From assembly GCA_026390775.1 (NCBI GenBank), contig JAPLFF010000001.1:1-39506 (forward strand): a DNA stretch of 39,506 bases, written 5' to 3'. This DNA comes from Ignavibacteriales bacterium (GTDB lineage Bacteria; Bacteroidota; Ignavibacteria; Ignavibacteriales; Melioribacteraceae). Of this stretch, positions 34,272 to 39,506 are shown piece by piece. The first letter of the stretch is position 1, and every line of letters begins with the position of its first letter. The notes beneath the pieces were generated by a model. That model was given only the letters and a program-made list of their open reading frames with translations. It searched no databases and was not told the origin of the DNA. A program made the position numbers and the translations under genes.

Positions 34272-35147
34272 ATGTCTAAAACACTTCATAGGATATTTAT
34301 ACTTATTCTCATTTTAATAGGGACTGCCACTTTTTTTTATTTTGGTATTTATGGGTATAGTTACTACTCAACCTCAAACGAAGAAAGATTTTTTAACGAA
34401 TTGCACAAATTTCTAAAACCAAGCGGATTAATCGGTCATGGATTAGGAATAATTGGATCTTTAATGATGATTATAGGTGTAAGTACATACATGATTAGGA
34501 AAAGAGTTAGAAAATTTGTCCGGTTAGGTTTTCTAAAATATTGGTTAGAAATACACATTTTTTTATGTAGTGTTGGTCCAATTTTAGTCTTATATCATAC
34601 AACATTTAAGTTTGGAGGAATTGTTGCCGTAAGTTTTTGGAGTATGATTGCTGTTGTTATCAGTGGTGTAATTGGAAGATTCATCTATATACAAATACCG
34701 AGAACAATTCAAGGACAAGAATATTCTTTAGATGAGTTAAAATCATTAGACCAAGATTATACACATAGACTTAAAGCAGAATTCGGCTTAGATGATATCT
34801 TGATAACAAAACTGGAATATTTTAATAAGATTCAGATTCATAAAAGAACAAATTTTTTCTCAATCGGTTGGTTGATATTAAAAGATTATTTTATGAACAA
34901 AAAATTGATCAGTGAGTTCAAGAAAGAATTAATCTTACGAAAAATTGAACCAAACAAAGTCAAAGCGATTGTAAAACTTTGTAATTCAAAATTAATTTTA
35001 TCTAGAAAAATCAGTCTTTTACATTCCGTACATAAAATTTTTAAATACTGGCATATTGTTCATCTTCCGTTTGCAATCATTATGCTAATAATTATGCTCG
35101 TTCATGTTACAGTAGCTGTAGCATTTGGTTATAAATGGGTTTTTTAG
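34272..35147 (+). CDS. Membrane protein with transmembrane histidines, probable haem-b cytochrome
   Basis: This 291-residue protein has about four transmembrane helices: residues ~7-30, ~52-75, ~95-140 (one or two) and ~262-284. Histidines lie in or at the ends of these helices: His56 ('GLIGHGLGIIG'), His95 and His109 ('EIHIFLCSVGPILVLYHTT'), and His261, His264 and His278 ('YWHIVHLPFAIIMLIIMLVH'). Paired histidines near membrane faces are typical of b-type haem sites in cytochrome b561 or ferric-reductase-like proteins. A charged cytoplasmic loop (~150-245) separates the helical halves. It is the first gene of a cluster with a ferredoxin-flavoprotein and multihaem cytochromes c, so it would carry electrons across the inner membrane. 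No exact family was recognised. Confidence 0.65.
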   Translation: MSKTLHRIFILILILIGTATFFYFGIYGYSYYSTSNEERFFNELHKFLKPSGLIGHGLGIIGSLMMIIGVSTYMIRKRVRKFVRLGFLKYWLEIHIFLCSVGPILVLYHTTFKFGGIVAVSFWSMIAVVISGVIGRFIYIQIPRTIQGQEYSLDELKSLDQDYTHRLKAEFGLDDILITKLEYFNKIQIHKRTNFFSIGWLILKDYFMNKKLISEFKKELILRKIEPNKVKAIVKLCNSKLILSRKISLLHSVHKIFKYWHIVHLPFAIIMLIIMLVHVTVAVAFGYKWVF

Positions 35148-35169
35148 AAAGATAATTCAATGTTTTTGA

Positions 35170-36510
35170 ATGGAAGTATTAATAGAAAATATTATTACAT
35201 ATTCAATTGTTGCATTCCTGGCAATTGGGATAATTTATTTCCAGTTGAGAAGAAACAAGAAGAAATCAAAAATCATTCAAGGCAAAATTGAAAAAGCAAA
35301 AGAACTTGGTTTCCACGAACCCGTCTCTCTCCATCCTGTAGTCAATTTAGATATATGTATTGGAAGCGCTGCTTGTATTAAAGCCTGCCCCGAACATGAT
35401 ATTCTCGGTATTGTTGATGGTAAAGCTGCAACTATAAATGCATCCCGTTGTGTAGGGCATGGTGCGTGCTTTCATGCTTGTCCCGTTGGAGCTATAACTC
35501 TTTTGATAGGGACAGAAAAACGCGGTGTAGATTTGCCTCATATTAGCCAAGAATTTGAAACTAATGTTAAAGGAATTTATATAGCGGGAGAATTGGGAGG
35601 TATGGGCTTGATAAAAAATGCTGTAGCTCAGGGTAAGCAAGCTGTAGATAACATAGCTAAAAATTTAAAAAAATCTCAAAAAGCAAAATACGATATTGTC
35701 GTTGTTGGCGCCGGTCCTGCCGGAATCTCAGCAACATTAGCAGCCAAAGAAAAAAATCTAAAGTATCTTACACTTGAACAAAATAGTTTAGGAGGCACAG
35801 TTTTTTCTTTCCCTAGAAAGAAAATTGTAATGACCTCTCCAATGCATTTGCCGCTTTATGGTAAAGTTAAATTCACTGAAACTTCTAAACCGGAATTGTT
35901 GGAATTATGGAATGAAGTTTTACAGAAAAATAAAATTACTATTAGGGAAAACCAAAAGGTTGTTTCGATAGAAAAATTTGATGATCATTTCTTGGTTAAA
36001 ACATTAGATGATACATTTACAACAAATTCAATTTTGTTGGCAATTGGCAGAAGAGGATCACCAAGAAAATTAGGTGTTCTTGGGGAACAACTAGAAAAAG
36101 TTGCTTACCGATTAATTGAACCTGAATTAATTAATAATCAAAATGTTTTAATAGTAGGAGGTGGAGATTCTGCTATTGAGGCTGTATTATCATTGCTTGA
36201 AGACAAAAGTAATAAAGTAACATTATCATATCGAGGCGATTCCTTCGCACGGATTAAACCCAGAAATTCTGAAAATATCAATAAAGCTGAAAAAAATAGT
36301 CAGGTAGAAATACTTTATAGTTCTCAAGTTGTTGAGATTAAAGATAAATCTGTAATGTTCAGTTTTATTAAAGACGGCATAATGTTTGAGAAAGAAGTAA
36401 TTAACGATTTGGTCTACATTTTTGCAGGCGGCGAATTACCTAATGAATTTTTAGAAAAAGCCGGAATAAGAATAACCAAAAAGTTTGGTGAGGTAATATT
36501 AAAACATTAA
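35170..36510 (+). CDS. Membrane-anchored ferredoxin + TrxR-like flavoprotein with permuted motif order
   Basis: This 446-residue protein has an N-terminal membrane helix (~5-26), then a two-cluster ferredoxin domain (C63.....C69...C73P; C94.....C100...C104P). In both motifs the second Cys of the classic CxxCxxCxxxCP is replaced (Ser66, His97). Next comes 'ETNVKGIYIAGELGGMGLIK' (~129-148), the FAD-binding element normally at the C-terminus of thioredoxin-reductase-like flavoproteins. Only after that come the FAD Rossmann motif 'VVGAGPAG' (178-185) and NAD(P)H motif 'IVGGGDSA' (from 328). The chain ends at 'GIRITKKFGEVILKH', just where that element would normally follow. It probably oxidises NAD(P)H, or reduces NAD(P)+, in exchange with the membrane haem protein upstream (22 bp away). 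Confidence 0.85.
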   Translation: MEVLIENIITYSIVAFLAIGIIYFQLRRNKKKSKIIQGKIEKAKELGFHEPVSLHPVVNLDICIGSAACIKACPEHDILGIVDGKAATINASRCVGHGACFHACPVGAITLLIGTEKRGVDLPHISQEFETNVKGIYIAGELGGMGLIKNAVAQGKQAVDNIAKNLKKSQKAKYDIVVVGAGPAGISATLAAKEKNLKYLTLEQNSLGGTVFSFPRKKIVMTSPMHLPLYGKVKFTETSKPELLELWNEVLQKNKITIRENQKVVSIEKFDDHFLVKTLDDTFTTNSILLAIGRRGSPRKLGVLGEQLEKVAYRLIEPELINNQNVLIVGGGDSAIEAVLSLLEDKSNKVTLSYRGDSFARIKPRNSENINKAEKNSQVEILYSSQVVEIKDKSVMFSFIKDGIMFEKEVINDLVYIFAGGELPNEFLEKAGIRITKKFGEVILKH

Positions 36511-36518
36511 AGAAAATA

Positions 36519-38087
36519 TTGTTTTTGTTTTTACTGGTAATATTTACCTTACCTGTAGATGCACAGGTTTCGCCGGGCGATCTTACTAAACCGCATGCCT
36601 ATTTAGAAGGTATGAGTAATTGTACTAAATGCCATCATATCGGAGGGCAAGTTCGTAATCAGGAATGTCTTACTTGCCATACTGAAATTACCAAACTGCA
36701 AAATGAAAAAAGAGGTTACCATTATTTTAGTGAGGCTGCAAAAAAGAATTGCTTCGATTGCCACAGTGAACATCACGGCAGAAATTTTAGAATAGTAAAT
36801 CTCAACGAGAAGAATTTTGATCACACTAAAACGGGTTTTGTCCTAACCGGCAAACATTCTAAAATAAATTGTGCCGATTGCCATAAATCAGAATTCATAA
36901 AAGATAATAAAACTACAAAGCGTGCCGGAACTTTTATGGGATTGCGATCAGTATGCCTGGATTGCCATCAAGATGAACATCAATCAACTCTTGGCAACAA
37001 ATGTGAGAACTGTCACTCATCTGAAAATTTTAAGCCGGCATCAAAGTTTAAACACGATACTGCTAAGTACACATTAAACGGATCTCATGTTAAAGTTGAA
37101 TGCATTAAATGTCATCCGGCAGAAATGAAGAACGGAAAAAAGTTCCAGAGATTTAAAGGCCTTGTGTTTGAGTCATGTAATTCCTGTCATCAAGATTTTC
37201 ATAAAGGGAAATTTGGTAATAAGTGCGAAAGCTGTCATATAACCGAATCATTCCGCACAATAAAAAATTTAGAAAAATTTGATCACGGAAAAACAAATTA
37301 TCCTCTAATTGGTAAACATGTCTCTGTAAAATGTGTTGATTGCCATAAAGGGGGATTAAATGTTAAACCTAAATATGAAAAATGCATTAGCTGTCATAAT
37401 GATTATCATATCGGTGAATTCAATAAAAACGGTTCAGTAACAGATTGTTCTGTTTGCCATGATATAAATGGATTTGAGAATACATCCTTTTCTATCGAAA
37501 ATCATTCTAGGACCAAATTCAATTTATCAGGAAGTCATCTTGCTATTCCGTGTATAACATGTCATAAGAAAAATACTAAATGGGAATTTAGACTAGACGG
37601 AAATGCTTGTGTGAATTGTCATCAAAATTTTCATGGAAGTTCAATTACACTTCAAAACTATAAAGGGAATAATTGCGAGGCTTGTCACACTACAGAAAAA
37701 TGGAATGTAGTAAATTTCGAACACAGGCTCACCGGATTTGAATTATTTGGCGTTCATAAAAAACAAGATTGCAGCAAATGCCATAGTAACAAAAATGAAA
37801 ACACAAGTAAGATAATCTCATTTACTACCAAGTCAGATTGCGTCTTTTGTCATAAAGATGTTCATGTTGGACAGTTCATAAAAAATGGGATTGCAGATTG
37901 CCAAAGATGTCATCATTTTGATAATTGGAAACCGGATCTGTTTGATCACACCCAAACATCATTCCAATTAGAAGGAGCGCATCTAAAGCAACCTTGTTAC
38001 AAATGTCACAAAACAATAGTTGATGAGAAAGGAAAGTATATCAAGTATAAACTTGGCGAGGTAAAATGCGCGGACTGTCATTCGTAA
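36519..38087 (+). CDS. Exported 20-haem cytochrome c
   Basis: About 522 residues from TTG 36519 (529 from ATT 36498) with 20 CxxCH haem-binding motifs, roughly one haem per 25 residues. The signal peptide ends 'LPVDAQ'. The first in-frame conventional start, TTG 36519, gives a signal with no basic N-region and no ribosome site. ATT 36498 gives 'MKTLKKILFLFLLVIF' with GAGG 4 nt upstream, so the true start is probably ATT 36498, overlapping the flavoprotein gene by 13 bases. A unit 'F.H..T.F.L.G.H.....C..CH' recurs about six times ('FDHTKTGFVLTGKHSKINC', 'FDHGKTNYPLIGKHVSVKC', 'FDHTQTSFQLEGAHLKQPC'); its extra histidines are probable distal haem ligands. No lipobox or sorting domain is seen. 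It would act as a periplasmic or extracellular electron conduit. The 3' end overlaps the next gene by 22 bases. Confidence 0.9.
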   Translation: MFLFLLVIFTLPVDAQVSPGDLTKPHAYLEGMSNCTKCHHIGGQVRNQECLTCHTEITKLQNEKRGYHYFSEAAKKNCFDCHSEHHGRNFRIVNLNEKNFDHTKTGFVLTGKHSKINCADCHKSEFIKDNKTTKRAGTFMGLRSVCLDCHQDEHQSTLGNKCENCHSSENFKPASKFKHDTAKYTLNGSHVKVECIKCHPAEMKNGKKFQRFKGLVFESCNSCHQDFHKGKFGNKCESCHITESFRTIKNLEKFDHGKTNYPLIGKHVSVKCVDCHKGGLNVKPKYEKCISCHNDYHIGEFNKNGSVTDCSVCHDINGFENTSFSIENHSRTKFNLSGSHLAIPCITCHKKNTKWEFRLDGNACVNCHQNFHGSSITLQNYKGNNCEACHTTEKWNVVNFEHRLTGFELFGVHKKQDCSKCHSNKNENTSKIISFTTKSDCVFCHKDVHVGQFIKNGIADCQRCHHFDNWKPDLFDHTQTSFQLEGAHLKQPCYKCHKTIVDEKGKYIKYKLGEVKCADCHS

Positions 38088-39506
38088 TATTTTTAATAGT
38101 AACCGTTTCTTTGTGCAATGCACAATCTCCTCACGGAAATAAATTTAACCGTGATTGCCAGGATTGCCATACTAGTGATTCATGGAAAGTAAATCTTGCT
38201 AAAATTAATTTTAAGCATGAAGAAACCGGTTTTGCTCTTACCGGCCAGCACAAAATTGTTACTTGCCGAGCTTGTCATTCATCATTGGAATTCACTTCTA
38301 GTAAAAACAAATCTCAATGTTTTAATTGTCACGAAGATATTCATGAAAATTCTGTTGGGAAAAACTGCGTTAGATGTCATGATACACGAACATGGATCAT
38401 AGAAAAAATTACTGATTTACATCGTATGTCTCGTTTCCCGTTAATAGGAAATCATACCAAAGCAAATTGCAATCAATGCCATCTATCTTCTTCCAAATTA
38501 AAATTTGATCCAATCGGCATAAATTGTTTCGATTGCCATTCAGTTAATTATTATGCAACTAAAAACCCGAATCATGTAAATGCAAATTTTTCAACAGATT
38601 GCCAGCAATGTCATAGCCTAATTTCTCCAGTGTGGTTAACAACATCTGTAATACATGATTTTTTTCCATTAACTGGATCTCACAACATTGCAAATTGTTT
38701 TGCATGTCATAATCAAACAAGTTATAAAGGATTAACTCAAGATTGTTATTCATGCCATAAGCAGAGGTATGAATCTGTAAGTTCTCCAAATCACGTTACA
38801 CTAAATTTTCCAAAAGATTGTAAACAATGCCATACAACAAATGGCGGCTGGAAACCGGCGAGTTTTGCTAATCATGATTCATTCTATCCTTTAACTGGAG
38901 CTCATAATTTAATTAGAAATAATTGTTCTCAATGCCATTCAACCGGTTATAGTTCTCCGGCACGTCAGTGTGTAAATTGTCATCAGCAAAATTATAATGG
39001 TGCACCGAATCATCTATCACAGGGTTACCCCACGGATTGTTCGCAATGTCATACAACAACAGTTTGGCAAGGAGCTACATTTAATCATTCATCAACAAAT
39101 TTTCCATTAGTTGGTGCACATACAAGTGTATCATGTCAGCTATGTCATACAAACGGATATGCAGGAACACCAACAACATGTATCTCGTGCCATCAAAGTA
39201 AATTTACCACAGCACCAAATCATGTTGCACAAAATTATCCTCAAGATTGTAAACAGTGCCATTCTCCTGTAGATTGGAAACAAATAAGTTTTGATCATAA
39301 TACAACTAGATTTCCTTTAGTCGGATCGCATGTTAATGTTAGTTGCAGCTCGTGTCATATAACTAAACTAACAGGAACACCAACAACATGTATCTCATGC
39401 CATCAAACAAATTTTAATAGTGCACTAAATCATGTTGCACAAGGATACCCAACAGATTGTGCAAAGTGCCATACCACAGTTGCATGGAACGCAGTTACAT
39501 TCAATC
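38066..39506 (+). CDS. Repetitive multihaem cytochrome c, 5' part (runs off the window)
   Basis: Start ATG 38066 with GAGG 4 nt upstream, inside the last codons of the preceding cytochrome gene. Signal peptide 'MRGLSFVIFLIVTVSLCNAQ'. The frame stays open to the right edge: about 480 residues with 19 CxxCH motifs. It is built from repeats: early ones resemble the upstream cytochrome ('FKHEETGFALTGQHKIVTC'), later ones are regular 70-residue units with three haems each ('NHVAQ.YP.DC.QCH', 'F.H..T.FPLVG.H', 'TGTPTTCISCHQ'). The repeats become more alike toward the right edge. Very likely a long extracellular or cell-surface haem chain; the end, and any anchor or T9SS domain, lie outside the window. 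Confidence 0.9.
   Translation, partial: MRGLSFVIFLIVTVSLCNAQSPHGNKFNRDCQDCHTSDSWKVNLAKINFKHEETGFALTGQHKIVTCRACHSSLEFTSSKNKSQCFNCHEDIHENSVGKNCVRCHDTRTWIIEKITDLHRMSRFPLIGNHTKANCNQCHLSSSKLKFDPIGINCFDCHSVNYYATKNPNHVNANFSTDCQQCHSLISPVWLTTSVIHDFFPLTGSHNIANCFACHNQTSYKGLTQDCYSCHKQRYESVSSPNHVTLNFPKDCKQCHTTNGGWKPASFANHDSFYPLTGAHNLIRNNCSQCHSTGYSSPARQCVNCHQQNYNGAPNHLSQGYPTDCSQCHTTTVWQGATFNHSSTNFPLVGAHTSVSCQLCHTNGYAGTPTTCISCHQSKFTTAPNHVAQNYPQDCKQCHSPVDWKQISFDHNTTRFPLVGSHVNVSCSSCHITKLTGTPTTCISCHQTNFNSALNHVAQGYPTDCAKCHTTVAWNAVTFN
39008..39506 (+). repeat. Tandem 210-bp repeats coding three-haem modules
   Basis: Units begin at 39008, 39218 and 39428, exactly 210 bp (70 codons) apart; the third is cut by the window edge. 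DNA identity is high locally: the ~35-bp block beginning AGGAACACCAACAACATG at 39163 recurs at 39373 almost unchanged. This indicates recent duplication. Two further, more diverged units (about 72-73 codons each) lie just upstream, starting near 38571. Confidence 0.85.

Follow-up and report, generated by a model that had tools for sequence, protein, structure and literature searches.

A probable PCC3-type porin-cytochrome conduit with a near-constant flavoprotein gene in Ignavibacteria and Bacteroidota

A PCC3-type locus with a fifth gene

PCC3 is a conduit that was proposed from the genomes of Fe(II)-oxidizing bacteria and reported in Alpha-, Beta-, and Gammaproteobacteria (He et al. 2017, PMC5566968). 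According to that paper, it comprises a porin, an extracellular cytochrome with a median of 34 haems (up to 85), a periplasmic cytochrome with a median of 21, and an inner membrane protein of about 300 amino acids with five helices, an SGxxG motif on helix 4, and a WX3HX13H motif on each of helices 3 and 5. The PCC3 cytochromes have 22 to 39 residues per haem (median 26), and the inner membrane proteins of PCC3 and PCC4, which share these motifs, are thought to be di-haem cytochromes b, possibly quinone-active. In Gallionellaceae, PCC3 is described as having four components, with no flavoprotein in the sections concerned (PMC10734462, PMC12442390), and in 2025 it was called functionally unverified (PMC12442390). 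It has so far been discussed as a possible means of extracellular electron transfer, mainly for Proteobacteria, including Fe(II) oxidizers. Here we describe a cluster of this type at the end of contig JAPLFF010000001.1 (C1; GCA_026390775.1) of an Ignavibacteriales bacterium with a 3.0-Mb genome in 8 contigs. The entire contig, 39,506 bp, is the window of this analysis. It belongs with the PCC3 type but adds a flavoprotein component that is new and nearly constant, and it extends the range of hosts. Its features are as follows.

34272-35147, plus strand: CYB, 291 amino acids, membrane protein with five helices, predicted to be a di-haem cytochrome b of the PCC3 inner membrane type.
CYB motifs: W91-x3-H95-x13-H109 (helix 3), S131-G-x-x-G135 (helix 4), W260-x3-H264-x13-H278 (helix 5).
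35170-36510, plus strand: FLP, 446 amino acids, anchored in the membrane at its N terminus, with two ferredoxin-like motifs followed by FAD and NAD(P) domains of the YpdA/thioredoxin-reductase type.
35356-35481, plus strand: ferredoxin motifs of FLP, the second ligand of the second [4Fe-4S]-type motif being His.
36519-38087, plus strand: MHC1, 522 amino acids, TTG start, exported cytochrome c with 20 CxxCH motifs.
38066-38087, plus strand: 22-bp MHC1/MHC2 overlap, the last MHC1 haem motif and stop codon lying over the MHC2 start.
38066-39506, plus strand: MHC2, exported multihaem cytochrome c built of repeats, open at the contig end, with 19 CxxCH motifs in its first 480 codons.
39409-39506, plus strand: 98-bp contig-end segment identical to the end of contig C3 (reversed).
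C3:845472-847076, minus strand: porin gene, after the MHC2 stop codon on C3, 78% identical to the porin of a relative (L058).

An initial sequence-only reading had described four of these genes, namely, a histidine-bearing membrane protein, an Fe-S/FAD/NAD(P) protein, and cytochromes with 20 and at least 19 haems, and all four were found in place and in that order. It had also described the genes as overlapping, which holds for MHC1 and MHC2 (an overlap of the same length was found in 47 of the 61 neighboring pairs measured) but not for CYB-FLP and FLP-MHC1, which are separated by 22 and 8 bp, respectively. Because the window spans an entire contig, it is the assembly that truncates MHC2. The L058 porin, encoded after MHC2 in that relative, had a single match in the source genome, near the end of C3, and the C3 side carries 16 CxxCH motifs (one inside the 98-bp overlap), a stop codon, and then the porin gene. 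The 98-bp identity and the C3 motifs together indicate that MHC2 has at least 34 haem motifs and that the assembly broke inside its repeats, the figure being a lower bound because repeats may be collapsed in the assembly. BLAST detected 70 to 82% repeats between the C1 end and C3; no tandem array was found in window positions 36000 to 39506.

Haem counts throughout are counts of CxxCH, for which chance was excluded by shuffling (at most three motifs in 2,000 shuffles each of MHC1 and MHC2). Within the window, MHC1 and MHC2 have 26.1 and 25.3 residues per haem, respectively. Considering complete frames only, 52 of 66 first cytochromes have 20 motifs and 10 have 23, the remaining 4 having 18, 16, 13, or 10, while the 43 second cytochromes that directly precede a protein recognized by the porin profile have 13 to 82 motifs (median 30) and a median of 25.4 residues per haem. 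Elsewhere, the second cytochrome reaches 88 motifs in a complete frame in L186, with no porin in view, and has only 10 in L112, L113, and L115. An alignment of 39 MHC1 rows, preselected for having 20 or 23 motifs, contains exactly 40 histidine positions with at least 95% conservation, of which 20 belong to CxxCH and 20 do not; the latter were not selected for, and bis-histidine ligation is therefore predicted for all 20 MHC1 haems. A structure model of the porin from L131 with 40 relatives aligned (predicted local distance difference test [pLDDT], 85.7) has a small N-terminal beta part and 22 long strands, as counted on the model, and its residues 135 to 536 align to solved outer-membrane barrels (best Z 19.8, root mean square deviation 4.9, 346 residues).

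The locus thus resembles PCC3 in its porin and two very haem-rich cytochromes (here mostly 20 haems, and a median of 30 in the 43 loci), in the density of about 25 residues per haem, and in the inner membrane protein, with its five helices, SGxxG, and pair of WX3HX13H motifs. The match to PCC3 extends feature by feature to four of the five genes and is to the published description rather than by sequence comparison, and the earlier statement that the gene set corresponds to no recognized system was accordingly too strong. It is unlike PCC3 in that FLP is a near-constant fifth gene, whereas the published conduit has four components without a flavoprotein (its authors do not exclude members on that ground); in that the hosts are Ignavibacteria and Bacteroidota as opposed to Proteobacteria; and in the 22 modeled strands of the porin, compared to up to 42 predicted transmembrane regions in published PCC3 porins. 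Among the matches listed in searches of the text of open-access articles, no text was found with PCC3 in Bacteroidota or with a flavoprotein part, and the passages seen, including those of PMC6295460, PMC11475568, and PMC11748539, named no FLP-like protein in such a cluster.

Pairing of the membrane protein and the flavoprotein

CYB was found in 39 of 395 genomes of the phylum. In the search of the same number of genomes with FLP, 42 passed E 1e-70, of which 38 have the cluster kind of FLP, all with CYB. FLP was not counted in the other four (G030, G036, G075, and G117), where the match is confined to 122 to 432 inside frames of about 830 amino acids, a split made post hoc; G411 (match at 5 to 257) was counted. 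Taking both searches to cover the same 395 genomes, from their equal totals and shared labels, 38 genomes have CYB and FLP, one has CYB alone (G036), and none has FLP alone (Fisher P = 2.7e-52, kinship ignored). In a set of 57 relatives, the source genome included, 30 gave a CYB match, that in G030 being only a 24% match inside a larger protein.

Two loci depart from the common layout. That of G036 (L083) is decayed, with two stop codons in CYB, no multihaem gene in the 16 kb examined, and no cluster-type FLP found, and that of G047 (L065) is split, FLP lying about 15 kb from CYB. The frames of about 830 amino acids that match FLP only at 122 to 432 occur in G012, G024, G028, G030, G036, G075, and G117 and combine this FAD/NAD(P) half with other, different sequence. 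A 784-amino-acid Pseudoalteromonas protein (L214; FLP match at 123 to 436) may be similar; it was the best plasmid match of FLP outside Bacteroidota and was discarded as a candidate, being encoded among glycosyltransferases and not in such a cluster.

Gene order was followed in named genomes, for which the best 80 of at least 524 relatives were kept, so that these loci lean towards the relatives of the window (two of them, L184 and L185, are from one metagenome-assembled genome). Among these best 80, the host titles include Ignavibacteria, Prolixibacteraceae (Maribellus, Draconibacterium, Mariniphaga, and Sunxiuqinia), Saprospiraceae, and others. In 75 of the 80 loci, CYB is followed on its own strand by FLP, with nothing between them in 58, an intervening TPR gene in 16, and inserted genes in L155. 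All five genes fall within the stretch examined in 43, the other 37 being mostly cut by the locus end. Conservation of gene order in relatives, set beforehand as one of the points on which the sequence-only reading could fail, is thus borne out. In 18 more distant loci the arrangement mostly differs, FLP following the porin position in 16, following CYB in L109, and lying on another contig in L126. The porin position of those 16 holds a recognized porin in 12 and only a porin-sized protein in L116, L120, L121, and L124; the place of CYB in L114, where the frame filter had dropped it, was taken from the CYB genome search. The CYB-FLP pairing outlasts changes of gene order.

Other genes accompany the cluster. 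A TPR protein of about 200 amino acids with one N-terminal helix follows CYB in many loci (e.g., L075:10812-11417 and L063:11787-12377) and is not present in the window. A DapF-like gene (about 286 amino acids) and a gene of about 101 amino acids directly precede CYB at L075:12420-13607, where Pfam was run, and the same pair was judged by gene length in other loci. Near the conduit of L075, at 128-2034, a CYB-like frame of 191 amino acids (weak Ni_hydr_CYTB and DUF4405 matches) overlaps a 10-haem cytochrome gene.

The conserved residues of both proteins were read from alignments of all 67 CYB, all 41 porin, 54 of 59 FLP, and 38 of 61 MHC1 sequences listed, plus the window's own where present. 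All 68 CYB rows share H95, H109, H261, H264, and H278, the pairs H95/H109 and H264/H278 each being 14 residues apart, and in every row WX3HX13H occurs exactly twice and SGxxG at least once. The two HX13H pairs and an SGxxG are also kept in 19 of 19 further sequences (the 18 distant loci plus a plasmid copy from Emticicia, see below), and both motif tryptophans in 12 of these. Membrane helices of the window CYB were modeled at 3-27, 53-78, 91-109, 117-141, and 260-288. The loop at 76-90 is basic (seven K/R, no D/E); if it lies inside, H95 and H264 would sit towards the cytoplasm and H109 and H278 towards the periplasm, with two stacked b haems, the binding of which is predicted from the conserved histidine pairs. 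No Pfam family was above cut-off in the window CYB, DUF4405 appeared weakly in 43 of the 68 relatives (best E 3.7e-5), and a PDB sequence search with CYB gave weak matches only (best E 0.1).

According to Pfam and PDB searches, FLP consists of a two-cluster ferredoxin part and an FAD/NAD(P) part nearest YpdA and thioredoxin reductase. The best solved relative of the latter is YpdA 7a7b (profile E 1.1e-44); against the YpdA model FLP scores 156 bits (cut-off, 339.9). Its ferredoxin motifs read C63-x2-S66-x2-C69-x3-C73-P and C94-x2-H97-x2-C100-x3-C104-P. FLP has six cysteines, not eight, the second Cys of each motif being replaced (by Ser and His, respectively), and the window FLP has none beyond these motifs, which speaks against a thiol reductase. 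The six cysteines are invariant in 55 of 55 rows, as is the His at position 97, while position 66 is Ser in 41, Thr in 11, Cys in 2, and Val in 1. Among 18 distant FLP sequences (17 from loci in the L109 to L125 range plus the Emticicia copy), the His is kept in all 18 and the first motif has the usual four-cysteine form in 14, which makes the His the older feature, whereas Ser or Thr at position 66 is mainly a trait of the window's closer relatives. The invariant His predicts an unusual second cluster. The N-terminal helix is followed by a very basic stretch, suggesting that the remainder of FLP is cytoplasmic, and a stretch of the form Y-R-x3-F-x-R-x-K-P resembles that of YpdA, a hint at NADPH. 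The cysteine of the YpdA GxGPCG stretch is Ala in FLP.

The cluster was also seen on a plasmid. pEMTOL02 of Emticicia oligotrophica DSM 17448 (NC_018749.1, 78197-89995; L209) carries ccsA, CYB, FLP, two multihaem cytochrome genes, and the porin gene in one row, the cytochromes having 23 and then 40 haems and the ccsA product having the ResB and Cytochrom_C_asm domains of a cytochrome c synthase. A megablast of plasmids with CYB-FLP gave no match, and the Emticicia row was found in protein mode; it is a possible mobile electron-conduit cassette. A different module was found on plasmids of Spirosoma, Bradyrhizobium, Methylophaga, and Qipengyuania (L210 to L213), with an FNR-type flavoprotein (FAD_binding_6, NAD_binding_1, and Fer2, the last a 2Fe-2S domain), a CYB-like five-helix protein, and a 7-haem cytochrome. 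The five CYB relatives from these modules score 46 to 72 bits (E 3e-15 to 4e-23 in a 15-sequence set); all five have two or more HX13H motifs and four have one WX3HX13H. The CYB type of membrane family therefore stands beside NAD(P)H-type flavoproteins at least twice, the second dehydrogenase being unrelated to FLP. In two of these modules a DUF1622 gene comes next, and in two there are copper-related genes nearby.

Proposed electron route and competing explanations

Read from the sequences are the gene set, the motifs, the conserved order, the co-occurrence, and the barrel prediction, and together they point to what is probably a trans-envelope conduit of the PCC3 kind with its inner end linked to NAD(P)H. 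From these data we infer cofactor binding, the order of electron transfer, the physiological use of NAD(P)H, an outward direction, and the nature of the acceptor, as follows. NAD(P)H, more likely NADPH, would reduce the FAD of FLP on the cytoplasmic face, and the FLP Fe-S clusters would relay the electrons to CYB. There they would first reach the haem b nearer the cytoplasm (H95/H264), then cross the membrane to its periplasmic counterpart (H109/H278), and leave CYB for the 20-haem MHC1 bridging the periplasm. MHC1 would hand them to MHC2, held in the porin, and so to an acceptor outside the cell, for which minerals, humics, electrodes, and other cells are candidates. The whole chain would hold more than fifty haem groups across both membranes. 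The strict CYB-FLP pairing suggests that in this phylum the di-haem CYB takes electrons from NAD(P)H. The initial proposal of NAD(P)H electrons passing into the membrane and out along a long haem chain, or in the opposite direction, is partly supported: it fits the genes found, and the mechanism is plausible.

By charge balance, electrons leaving the cytoplasm would cost membrane potential, which favors an overflow valve resembling NADPH oxidase (NOX) over energy-conserving respiration. A more specific version of the NAD(P)H-linked route, which we put forward tentatively, is an "outward NADPH oxidase," independent of quinones and present in scattered members of the phylum (once on a plasmid), in which a YpdA-type flavoprotein with a His-substituted ferredoxin cluster would drive a di-haem protein and a haem wire, its periplasmic part almost constant at 20 to 23 haems and its outer part variable (10 to 88), allowing fermentative Bacteroidota to dump reductant onto minerals or other cells.

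Several observations weigh against the NAD(P)H-linked route. E. oligotrophica is a strict aerobe, so that anaerobic respiration cannot be the sole use. The system is patchy, CYB being missing from 356 of the 395 genomes, including the near-complete same-genus G010, and the gene row is broken in 5 of the 80 named loci (L135, L159, L163, L164, and L188). The first-motif Trp of CYB is replaced by Leu, Val, Tyr, or Phe in 7 of the 19 distant sequences, and in the plasmid-module relatives the first WX3HX13H was not found and SGxxG is present in only three of five. The structure model of CYB is only fair (pLDDT 79, predicted template modeling score 0.66); with it, none of the 27 Foldseek matches reached E 0.001, and no VIA-align score exceeded Z 7.4 (human STEAP4, at Z 5.1 and rank 18, falls within the unreliable fold matches), results that prove neither a new fold nor a lack of haem. 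MHC2 of the window is known as two contig-end parts, not as one whole frame, and the choice of NADPH over NADH comes from a motif shared with YpdA. Finally, the PCC3 model, in the published passages, is linked to quinones and has no flavoprotein (PMC5566968), so that CYB need not accept electrons from FLP.

This last point leads to an ordinary PCC3, with CYB giving electrons to and taking them from menaquinone, and with FLP as a side entry or regulator instead of the chief source of electrons. The inner membrane proteins of PCC3 and PCC4 with these motifs were indeed modeled as possibly quinone-active (PMC5566968), and the Gallionellaceae conduit, as described, has its four components without a flavoprotein (PMC10734462), but FLP accompanies CYB in 38 of 39 genomes, strict for an optional partner, and we consider this explanation unlikely. 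Somewhat less likely again is a conduit run inward, with Fe(II) or partner cells feeding MHC2, MHC1, and then CYB and FLP making NAD(P)H. PCC3 occurs in Fe(II) oxidizers and has been proposed for electron uptake (PMC5566968, PMC10734462), and two-way operation of such conduits has been described as possible (Mto/Mtr in PMC10734462; PMC8258643); flow to NAD(P)+ would, however, have to climb in redox potential and work against a membrane potential that is negative inside, and the cluster appears to contain no coupling device. A role of FLP in cytochrome maturation or thiol redox, keeping the haem-binding cysteines of the huge cytochromes reduced, is very improbable and was set aside: the catalytic half is nearest YpdA and thioredoxin reductase, a TPR protein adjoins CYB in many loci, and the Emticicia copy sits beside a cytochrome c synthase gene, but all six FLP cysteines lie in the ferredoxin motifs, the YpdA cysteine is Ala, and the porin and the HX13H pairs of CYB would be left unexplained.

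If the conduit with FLP at its inner end is indeed fed by NAD(P)H, the cytosolic nicotinamide pool would be coupled to extracellular acceptors without quinones, and CYB plus FLP would be a genetic marker of electroactivity in Ignavibacteria, Prolixibacteraceae, and Saprospiraceae. FLP is also the partner gene against which the quinone model of PCC3 becomes testable, and complete copies are available in two named strains, E. oligotrophica DSM 17448 and Maribellus sediminis Y2-1-60.

Relation to other porin-cytochrome and flavoprotein systems

MtrCAB and MtoAB share with the present cluster the logic of a porin-cytochrome complex across the outer membrane. They are unlike it in their components, a porin of the MtrB/PioB family and a decahaem cytochrome of the DmsE/MtrA family: MtrB/PioB was absent among the 22 Pfam families matched by the 41 porins (E up to 1), and MHC1 scored 47.1 bits against the decahaem DmsE model (cut-off, 192.2). 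A cluster in Burkholderiales has a porin preceded by cytochromes with 24 and 49 haems, the larger varying in haem number among relatives, and its authors relate it to He et al. 2017 (PMC7399161). It is like the present cluster in having a porin and two large cytochromes, the larger one variable, and the variable length of the second cytochrome is therefore not new in itself; it is unlike it in belonging to Betaproteobacteria and in that the section describing it mentions neither a flavoprotein nor a di-haem protein.

Cytochromes described in part of the literature on related hosts may be pieces of this cluster type: the largest of Ignavibacteria, with 40 and 33 motifs (PMC7399161); those of a Bacteroidetes metagenome-assembled genome from an anode, with six multihaem genes and a predicted barrel and with relatives in Ignavibacteriae (PMC8258643); and those of Saprospiraceae with more than 100 haem motifs (PMC11495043). 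The Pcc of Ignavibacterium album (IALB_1837-1840; Shi et al. 2014, PMC4245776), from a related bacterium, likewise combines a porin with multihaem cytochromes and is unlike the present cluster in its periplasmic cytochrome of 400 amino acids with 14 haems. A locus of that shape is present in the source genome itself (L055; contig C7, about 512.7 to 516.4 kb), encoding a 421-amino-acid protein, a 14-haem cytochrome of 401 amino acids, and a 9-haem cytochrome of 391 amino acids. The 421-amino-acid protein scores 17.3 bits against the porin profile of the present cluster (E 2.8e-7, 4-sequence set, filters off). By eye it is barrel-like, and 19-haem and 16-haem cytochromes are encoded just upstream. 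The Ignavibacterium-Pcc-shaped and PCC3-type loci seem to coexist in this genome.

At the inner end, FLP is like YpdA, the bacillithiol disulfide reductase, in its FAD/NAD(P) half and differs from it in lacking the GxGPCG cysteine and in having a membrane anchor and a ferredoxin part; the redox-active cysteines that define thioredoxin reductase (CxxC) and YpdA are both missing from FLP. In the CYB-FLP pair as a whole, the likeness is to NADPH oxidases and ferric reductases, in which an NAD(P)H-FAD protein feeds two b haems on two His-x13-His helices, a likeness of spacing that He et al. also noted (PMC5566968). The ferric reductase/NOX family was not among the 25 listed of the 59 Pfam families matched by the 68 CYB sequences. 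The dehydrogenase of those enzymes is of the FNR kind, whereas that of the present conduit is of the YpdA/thioredoxin-reductase kind and carries a ferredoxin part.

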